Positions 11,716 through 51,631 of a stretch of 53,525 nt of DNA are shown here, one piece after another. Each line of letters opens with the position of its first letter. Position 1 is the stretch's first letter. The translations under genes were made by a program, and so were the position numbers. The notes beneath the pieces are model-generated. The model did not search any database and was not told where the DNA came from. It was given only the letters and a program-made list of their open reading frames with translations. Source of the DNA: Ruminococcus sp. (GTDB lineage: Bacteria; Bacillota; Clostridia; Oscillospirales; Ruminococcaceae); contig SVNR01000013.1 in NCBI GenBank assembly GCA_015066815.1, positions 1 to 53,525 on the forward strand, given 5' to 3'.

Positions 11716-11839
11716 TCCGGAACATAGGTGTGCAGGCTTGCTGCGGCACACAAAACGGTCCGCTTAATGCTGCTCGGTTCCCCGCCTGACATGGTTCACG
11801 GTGTCTCGTTGCACAGGGCCCGCACACCTATATTCCGGA
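11716..11839 (-). ncRNA. ffs: Signal recognition particle RNA (SRP RNA, small bacterial type)
   Basis: On the minus strand the ends TCCGGAATATAGGTGTGCGG and its partner near 11716-11735 (GCACACCTATGTTCCGGA) form the long closing helix. The apical domain contains ATGTCAGGCGGGGAACCGAG followed by CAGCATTAAGC, the conserved Ffh-binding internal loop with GGAA-type tetraloop. At about 124 nt it is a small SRP RNA without the Alu domain of Bacillus. Location directly upstream of dnaX is the classic Firmicutes arrangement. Confidence 0.93.
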
Positions 11840-22699: not shown

Positions 22700-22825
22700 A
22701 TATCAATATACAGTACAAACTGAGCAGACCTCAGCAGACGCTTTGAGTCGGGTCACATGTGTGACAGTGGATTTTTACACCCACGGGACAGTAGTTACGA
22801 TTACTGATTCGTGGGTGCTTTTGTA
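22700..22825 (+). ncRNA. NiCo (czcD-type) riboswitch with transcription terminator
   Basis: The leader contains the conserved NiCo blocks in order: ACTGAGCAGACC (22719), CAGACGCTTTGAGTCGGGTC, GTGACAGTGGATTTTTACAC and CCACGGGACAGT (to 22792). These match the four-way-junction aptamer that binds Ni2+/Co2+ cooperatively. Its last strand also forms a terminator: CACCCACG pairs with CGTGGGTG, with CAGTA/TACTG inside, followed by CTTTTG. Ligand binding should block the hairpin and switch the efflux gene on. Family match and downstream CDF gene agree. Confidence 0.88.
22778..22825 (+). terminator. Riboswitch expression-platform terminator
   Basis: CACCCACG...CGTGGGTG stem with inner CAGTA/TACTG pairing, then GCTTTTGT. 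The 5' strand is shared with the aptamer, so the two folds exclude each other. Confidence 0.75.
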
Positions 22826-44272: not shown

Positions 44273-45178
44273 CTATGCTTTTTTTGTCATCTTTGAGCTG
44301 AACACGTCTGCGACCTCGGTTATTGAGATGTAAGCGGTTTTATCATTGTCGTGTACAATGCTGCGGAGAGTTCCAACCTGATATCTGTTTATTACAACGT
44401 ATACCATGGTTTTGGGTTTTCCGGAATAATACCCGGTTGCTTCGATTACTGTCATTCCGCATTCGAATTTTTCAGATATCGCGCTGCAAACTGCGTCAGG
44501 TTCGGAGGTGATTATAGTTGCAGCCTTTGCTCTGTCAAAGCCTTCCACTATGAAGTCTACAGTTTTAAGTGCTGCGCAGTAGGTTATAATAGAATACAGC
44601 GGAAGAATCCAGCTTTTTATGACGATACCACATGTAATATAAAGTATTACGTTATATATCATAACAAAAGTACCGACGGTTATTCCGAGTTTCTTTGCAA
44701 AAATAACAGCCATTACTTCTATGCCGTCCATTGCTCCGCCAAATCTTATTGCAAGACCGCTTCCCGTTCCAGAAATAAGCCCTCCGAACAGTGCACACAG
44801 CAGAAGATCCGAGCCGGCAAGAGGAGAGGCTATGCTTACATCTATCGGCAGAACATCGGTTATTATCCATGCCATTACAGAATATATCGTAACTGTATAT
44901 ACTGCGTATACAGTAAATGTCTTACCCTGCCTTTTCAGTCCGTATAACAGCAGCGGGACGTTGAGTATGATAAGAAATACAGAAAGCGTCATAAACTCCG
45001 GAGTGATCTGTGACAGAAGTATGGCAGTACCTGATATACCGCTGTCATAAAGCTTTACCGGTGCAAGAAACAGAGTAACTCCGAAAGCGTTTACTATGCC
45101 GGCTATAGTCAGAAAAAATAAGTCCTTTAGTGTTTTCAGCGTGAAAAAAGAACTTTTTTCTACGTTTGTTTGTTTCAA
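44273..45178 (-). CDS. YitT-family membrane protein (DUF161/DUF2179)
   Basis: The 301-residue protein has five to six membrane segments in the first ~205 residues ('GIVNAFGVTLFLAPVKLYDSGISGTAILLSQ', 'GSGLAIRFGGAMDGIEVMAVI') and a cytosolic DUF2179 domain ('AATIITSEPDAVCSAISEKF', 'GTLRSIVHDNDKTAYISITEV'). YitT proteins are widespread Firmicutes membrane proteins without a settled substrate. A TTG start with AGGTGG upstream is the only start that keeps the full first segment. An unusual structured RNA lies upstream on the same strand. Confidence 0.88.
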   Translation of the reverse strand: MKQTNVEKSSFFTLKTLKDLFFLTIAGIVNAFGVTLFLAPVKLYDSGISGTAILLSQITPEFMTLSVFLIILNVPLLLYGLKRQGKTFTVYAVYTVTIYSVMAWIITDVLPIDVSIASPLAGSDLLLCALFGGLISGTGSGLAIRFGGAMDGIEVMAVIFAKKLGITVGTFVMIYNVILYITCGIVIKSWILPLYSIITYCAALKTVDFIVEGFDRAKAATIITSEPDAVCSAISEKFECGMTVIEATGYYSGKPKTMVYVVINRYQVGTLRSIVHDNDKTAYISITEVADVFSSKMTKKA

Positions 45179-45269
45179 TTTTTAGTCCACCTTTTTTATG
45201 ATTTTCAGTCTGTAGTGTCATATATATGCAAAGTTTTTGATAAATTTATCTGTATTCACTATATCAGAT

Positions 45270-45306
45270 GATAGTGAACGTCAAAACAAATCAGACTTTA
45301 ACTATA
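45270..45306. repeat. Dispersed palindrome, copy 9 (37 bp)
   Basis: GATAGTGAACGTCAAAACAA then ATCAGACTTTAACTATA; the reverse complement aligns over its whole length with the copy at 7118. Confidence 0.75.
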
Positions 45307-45472
45307 AAATAAGGAGAGTACACTTTATGTGCATTACTCTCCGAAAAATCAATATGACTACCTGATATGGCATTGTCCGTATCAGGTAAAGAGCCGGAGC
45401 ATATATCTCCCTCTCAGACTGTTTTAAGGAAACACTGAAAATACGAAAGCTTAGTGTATAAATCAGTACTTC
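45300..45472 (-). ncRNA. Candidate structured RNA (~165 nt), unassigned
   Basis: The minus-strand transcript predicted from the promoter at 45480-45509 folds into: AAGGAA...TTCCTT with inner ACACT/AGTGT; GGAG...CTCC; ACCTGATA...TATCAGGT; and a final GGAGAGTA...TACTCTCC with inner TGCAC/GTGTA pairing followed by TTATTTTAT, a terminator. CTGAGAGGGA and ACCTGAT-n2-GG-n3-AATGCC recall TPP riboswitch pieces, but the required G-rich 5' strand of P2 is missing. It may be a leader of the YitT-family gene or a stand-alone RNA. Confidence 0.5.
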
Positions 45473-45479
45473 CTTAAAA

Positions 45480-45509
45480 ATTATATCATATGCTTTCTGC
45501 GCTTGTCAA
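45480..45509 (-). promoter_or_regulatory. Sigma-A promoter of the candidate structured RNA
   Basis: Minus-strand TTGACA (45504-45509), 18-bp spacer, TATAAT (45480-45485), both hexamers consensus. Confidence 0.82.
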
Positions 45510-45600: not shown

Positions 45601-45861
45601 TTATCTCTGCTCACAGATGAGCTTTATAGCAGTTCTTTCCTCTCCGTCAATCACGATATTGGTGAAGGCAGGGATACAGATAAGATCAACTCCTATAGGA
45701 GCAAGATAACCACGTGCTATAGCGATGGCCTTTATAGCCTGATTTGCAGCACCGGCACCTACAGCCTGAACTTCAACAGCCTTCTTTTCTCTTATAACAC
45801 CTGCTATTGCACCAGCTACGGAATTTGGCGAAGAATGTGATGAAACTTTTAAAATTTCCAA
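45601..45861 (-). CDS. spoVS: Stage V sporulation protein S
   Basis: The 86-residue protein is nearly a textbook SpoVS: 'EILKVSSHSSPNSVAGAIAGVIRE' (2-25), 'VQAVGAGAANQAIKAIAIARGYLAP' and a C-terminal 'GEERTAIKLICEQR'. SpoVS (Alba-like fold) acts in sporulation and coat assembly. GGAGGT precedes the ATG. Its gene stands next to ymdB as in Bacillus, but with its own promoter and terminator. Confidence 0.97.
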   Translation of the reverse strand: MEILKVSSHSSPNSVAGAIAGVIREKKAVEVQAVGAGAANQAIKAIAIARGYLAPIGVDLICIPAFTNIVIDGEERTAIKLICEQR

Positions 45862-51305: not shown

Positions 51306-51381
51306 GGGAGCATAGCTCAGCTGGGAGAGCATCTGCCTTACAAGCAGAGGGTCATAGGTTCGAGCCCTATTGTTCCCACCA
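51306..51381 (+). tRNA. tRNA-Val (anticodon TAC)
   Basis: Acceptor GGGAGCA/TGTTCCC, anticodon stem TCTGC/GCAGA with loop CTTACAA giving TAC, T-loop TTCGAGC; CCA is encoded (51379-51381). Confidence 0.95.
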
Positions 51382-51383
51382 AT

Positions 51384-51457
51384 GGCCTGGTAGTTCAGTT
51401 GGTTAGAACGCCGCCCTGTCACGGCGGAGGTCGTGGGTTCGAGTCCCATTCAGGTCG
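51384..51457 (+). tRNA. tRNA-Asp (anticodon GTC)
   Basis: Acceptor GGCCTGG/TCAGGTC with G-U pairs, anticodon stem CCGCC/GGCGG with loop CTGTCAC giving GTC, T-loop TTCGAGT. Starts 2 bp after tRNA-Val. CCA is not encoded. Confidence 0.95.
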
Positions 51458-51476
51458 CTCGCTGAAAAGCGAAAAT

Positions 51477-51549
51477 GCCTCTGTAGCTCAGTCGGTAGAG
51501 CAGGGGACTGAAAATCCCCGTGTCGATGGTTCGATTCCGTCCGGAGGCA
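51477..51549 (+). tRNA. tRNA-Phe (anticodon GAA)
   Basis: Acceptor GCCTCTG/CGGAGGC, D-stem GCTC/GAGC, anticodon stem GGGGA/TCCCC with loop CTGAAAA giving GAA, T-loop TTCGATT. Confidence 0.95.
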
Positions 51550-51558
51550 TCAGAATAT

Positions 51559-51631
51559 GCGGATTTAGCTCATCTGGTAGAGCGCCACCTTGCCAAGGTG
51601 GAGGTAGCGAGTTCGAGCCTCGTAATCCGCT
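51559..51631 (+). tRNA. tRNA-Gly (anticodon GCC)
   Basis: Acceptor GCGGATT/AATCCGC, anticodon stem CCACC/GGTGG with loop TTGCCAA giving GCC, T-loop TTCGAGC. Last tRNA of the cluster. Confidence 0.95.

Follow-up and report, generated by a model that had tools for sequence, protein, structure and literature searches.

Does the minus-strand DNA between spoVS and a YitT-family gene (yitT) of a Ruminococcus sp. encode a new riboswitch-like leader for yitT, a degenerate TPP switch, or a free RNA? These were the options left by an initial annotation, made from the letters of the 53,525-nucleotide stretch of contig SVNR01000013.1 that we analyzed as a whole (hereafter, the window). Comparison with related genomes indicates that the element is very probably the decayed remnant of an ordinary TPP (vitamin-B1) riboswitch of the thiC operon beside spoVS, and not a new riboswitch. 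The features on which this reading draws are collected in Table 1.

Table 1. Features of the element and its surroundings (window coordinates)
Feature	Position	Strand	Evidence
spoVS, upstream neighbour	45601..45861	-	Pfam SpoVS; conserved neighbour in congeners
Sigma-70 promoter, TTGACA-N18-TATAAT, extended -10 TG	45480..45509	-	12/12 consensus positions
53-nt hairpin, putatively left by a dispersed MITE-like element (TTAAGGAAGTACTGATT...TTTCAGTGTTTCCTTAA)	45424..45476	-	Arms match two distinct MITE ends
ACAG deletion scar; congeners have 16 bp more (ACAGGGGAGTCTGTTG), including the P2/P3 5' strand	45419..45422	-	Comparison with G004
Degenerate TPP aptamer core; P2 missing, CTGAGA (J3-2) and ACCTGAT..AATGCC retained	45342..45422	-	78-82% identity to five congener riboswitches
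Former P4/P5, near-perfect palindrome; J5-4 CG to AU	45360..45387	-	Alignment; fold -14.5 kcal/mol
Intrinsic terminator (once the expression platform), with stem GGAGAGT..ACTCTCC followed by TTATTTTAT	45304..45342	-	Fold -14.3 kcal/mol
Second dispersed repeat copy, TTTTGACGTTCACTAT, between terminator and yitT	45271..45286	-	About 119 copies (<=1 mismatch) in the window genome, 0 in control
YitT-family gene, downstream, in the place of thiC or secG in congeners	44273..45178	-	Pfam YitT_membrane + DUF2179

Promoter, fold, and terminator of the element

The element (45304-45509, minus strand) consists of a consensus promoter followed by four strong hairpins and a terminator, the T-rich tail of the fourth, terminator-like hairpin ending near 45304. 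The promoter, which the initial annotation had described as consensus, proved to match at every scored position and aligns with the TTGACA..TATACT of congeners, making it homologous to their thiC riboswitch promoter. Folding of the 186-nt strand gave -58.2 kcal/mol (z -5.5), and 0 of 200 shuffled sequences folded as well, in agreement with the hairpins and terminator first noticed by eye. The same early reading that no gene lies inside was confirmed, as the ORFs overlapping the element are short chance ORFs only.

The Rfam scan that had been suggested as a check returned no family at or above its cut-off for the element; RF00059, the TPP riboswitch (THI element), aligns below its cut-off. Matches to sRNA71, sau-27, and the L20 leader were at chance level only, and these families were rejected. 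Elsewhere, the window holds a NiCo (nickel/cobalt) riboswitch (22710-22793, plus strand, 61.5 bits), a bacterial small SRP RNA (11727-11825, minus strand, 66.2 bits), and a cluster of four tRNA genes (51306-51631, plus strand).

Relationship to the TPP riboswitch

The RF00059 alignment spans 45342-45446 and scores 20.3 bits, below the gathering cut-off of 54.3 bits for that family. The motifs CTGAGA, ACCTGAT, and AATGCC occur in TPP order and are aligned with conserved RF00059 letters, and the 5' strand of P2 is left empty; the TPP-like parts lacking a G-rich P2 5' strand had thus been correctly recognized in the sequence. The J3-2 UGAGA T-loop (U39-A43; pyrimidine ring) is retained as CTGAGA at 45412-45417. 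The P2 helix and the 5' strand of P3 are absent from the element. In the pyrophosphate pocket, G60 is kept, and the J5-4 CG has become AU inside a paired palindrome. In the TPP riboswitch, C77 and G78 of J5-4 are described as located by the pyrophosphate and the associated metal ion, and P2 residues G16-G19 are named as important for TPP recognition (PMC3764141, also the source for the roles of the J3-2 residues). Downstream, the YitT-family gene stands in place of a thiamine synthesis or transport gene.

Because several defining features of the TPP riboswitch are missing, we regard the element as a new example of TPP riboswitch decay and not as a functional member of RF00059; judged by its sequence, it should not bind TPP. 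The whole-genome E value of the 20.3-bit match is 0.16, which is chance level by score alone, and the case for a relic therefore rests on homology and synteny.

Synteny with the thiC operon of congeners

A BLAST search with the sequence of the element was conducted in 11 genomes of the genus, the window genome (G000) included. Five other genomes match about 86 nt, the 3' part, at 78-82% identity (best E 8e-17), and each of these matches is a canonical TPP riboswitch (65-66.6 bits). The order ymdB-spoVS-[TPP]-thiC is found in 5 of these 5 congeners, and ymdB also lies with spoVS upstream of our element. A significant alignment is thereby joined to a spoVS-linked position shared with intact members, as a relic should show.

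In G004 and G001, the two regions read further, thiC is followed by thiE-like and thiD-like genes (assigned by eye from sequence). In G002, the contig with spoVS breaks off in a MITE copy shortly past a promoter that lies downstream of this gene, and a second contig opens with the tail of a TPP riboswitch and thiC. In three further genomes (G003, G005, and G007), spoVS is directly followed by a gene that looks secG-like by eye, and G009 has a similar protein start. The window order is spoVS-[element]-yitT-secG. Among the 11 genomes, the degenerate form is carried by one only, and yitT occupies the spoVS-linked place in the window genome only. A YmdB+SpoVS tree does not resolve the branching place of the window genome, and the gain or loss of thiC at spoVS is thereby unordered.

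No thiC is present at the window locus. The single thiC of this genome lies on another contig (C18), is 66% identical to the spoVS-linked type, and sits behind an intact TPP riboswitch (60.2 bits); the five genes after it look by eye like thiF, thiG, thiH, thiE, and thiD. Since the sole thiC is elsewhere behind its own intact TPP riboswitch, a spoVS-linked thiC was dispensable. The thiC operon would then have been lost from the spot beside spoVS in the window lineage, and the relic may have decayed after this loss, or its decay may have come first.

Proposed steps of damage

The intact relatives allow each change in the element to be followed, and this step-by-step account, together with synteny and homology, strongly supports the degenerate TPP switch among the options first put forward. 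The first hairpin has arms, TTAAGGAAGTACTGATT and TTAAGGAAACACTGA, that match the ends of a MITE-like element at 18/22 and 17/22 positions and carry the end-specific G/A at position 9; two distinct ends are thus present in inverted arrangement. Full copies of the element, about 175-180 bp with paired ends, lie on contigs C4, C28, and C57 of the window genome. We counted 12 end motifs in that genome and 85-102 per genome in G001, G002, and G008, and a reversed-pattern control gave 0. At the promoter-aptamer junction, the hairpin insert is absent from G004, G006, and G010. By these sequence matches, the first hairpin is part of a repeat element and not of the aptamer, and a MITE-like hairpin would have inserted between promoter and aptamer.

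In G008 and G001, the same junction holds a different, longer insert starting TTAAGGAAATGCTGA (L004/L005, 1330-1660), with the riboswitch intact. The MITE-like family (TTAAGGAARCACTGATTAARTC ends, about 175-180 bp) was also seen at L158-L163 and L167-L169. The second dispersed repeat of Table 1, TTTTGACGTTCACTAT, forms some close inverted pairs and is frequent in G006, G010, and G002 and absent from G007 and G009.

A second change is a deletion. When 16 bp, from ACAG to ACAG, are removed from the G004 sequence AAAAACAGGGGAGTCTGTTGACAGTCTGAGA, the window sequence AAAACAGTCTGAGA results exactly. The deleted bases contain the G-rich 5' strand of P2 and the 5' strand of P3, and slippage between the ACAG repeats may have taken them out.

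The third change concerns P4/P5, where GCCGTAGGA in the 3' arm was replaced by ATATCAGGT, altering six of nine bases. Five of these alterations create complementarity to the hardly changed 5' arm, and with the resulting palindrome the equivalents of C77 and G78 are lost. The simplest explanation is probably a quasipalindrome template switch, a kind of event that is documented (PMC7202029; PMC8794818). Such a switch would have turned P4/P5 into a near-perfect palindrome and removed the pyrophosphate-binding loop.

Constraint, present working, and alternative explanations

Over 80 columns of the core, the element differs from the congeners at 16-19, compared with 0-6 for the congeners among themselves, and 13 of the 73 columns that are invariant in the five congeners are changed. 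At spoVS third codon positions, the window genome differs from the congeners by 29-41 and the congeners from one another by 0-36, so that the ranges overlap. The fast change of the core despite overlapping spoVS distances indicates that constraint was lost, and not merely that the species is more distant.

For the congeners, a likely anti-terminator is a duplex between CTCCGA (P3, 3' strand) and TCGGAG (terminator, 5' side). The predicted duplex is weaker in the element (-9.1 kcal/mol versus -10.3 to -19.0 kcal/mol in congeners), and the congener terminators aligned to that of the window reach -18 to -26 kcal/mol, compared with its -14.3 kcal/mol. The surviving promoter and terminator probably yield a transcript of about 165 nt, made constitutively and ending near 45304, and whatever read-through occurs would enter yitT. 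A consensus promoter scan from 45178 to 45300 found no other promoter ahead of yitT, the expression of which would thus require read-through or some other promoter. The free RNA among the initial options could plausibly arise, at about 165 nt, as a side product of the promoter and terminator that remain, and we saw no selection for it.

Could the remains nevertheless serve yitT? The dead riboswitch and the transposon hairpin might have been re-used, under selection, as a constitutive leader or attenuator or as a small RNA for this gene. We consider this unlikely, although the retention of a perfect-consensus promoter and an intact terminator speaks for it and is not predicted by pure neutral decay, and the complete retention of CTGAGA and ACCTGAT likewise runs counter to a simple relic. 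The conversion of P4/P5 into a stable hairpin, the overall z-score, and the immediate downstream, same-strand position of yitT also fit such re-use. However, mutation can account for the hairpins (MITE arms and quasipalindrome correction), the form is absent from congeners, and core constraint has been lost. Moreover, 80 yitT homologues lacked the motif CTGAGA..ACCTGAT..AATRCC, in a search that tolerated one mismatch in CTGAGA and one in ACCTGAT and would miss strongly diverged copies. A spoVS-like motif also lies some 1.5-1.9 kb upstream of two yitT homologues from other genomes (L074 and L075).

It is very improbable that the element is a still functional TPP riboswitch variant in which a new 5' hairpin takes the place of P2. 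The two retained aptamer motifs and the end of the 5' hairpin beside the expected start of P2 would suit such a variant, but this hairpin is a repeat element, the P2 contacts (G18 and G19) and J5-4 C77 and G78 are gone, the predicted anti-terminator is weakened, and thiC is absent from the locus; with defining parts missing, we rejected a functional switch. The leader first envisaged, a new class of riboswitch acting on the YitT-family gene, has only position and structure in its favor and was rejected as next to impossible, given the homology to the TPP riboswitches of five congeners, the lack of a TPP-like motif near the yitT homologues searched, and the presence of yitT here in 1 of 11 genomes.

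Significance and comparison with known systems

An apparently unassigned structured RNA is thus best explained as a riboswitch pseudogene, a small, clear example of riboswitch decay accompanying the loss of an operon from its spot. Literature searches on decayed or MITE-interrupted TPP riboswitches returned nothing relevant. The case is one of ordinary biology and opens no new regulatory class. It also carries a warning, as repeat hairpins and template-switch palindromes can yield strong folding z-scores without function.

Compared with the TPP riboswitch of RF00059, the relic is homologous, keeps the order CTGAGA, P3, ACCTGAT, and P5 AATGCC, has a promoter and a downstream terminator, and holds the genomic place of the congeners' thiC riboswitch. 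It differs in its low covariance score, the deleted P2/P3 5' strand, the lost J5-4 CG, and the lack of a thiamine gene downstream. Compared with the MITE-like element of the genus, the first hairpin has both distinct ends but lacks the internal part, with 53 nt left and diverged arms.
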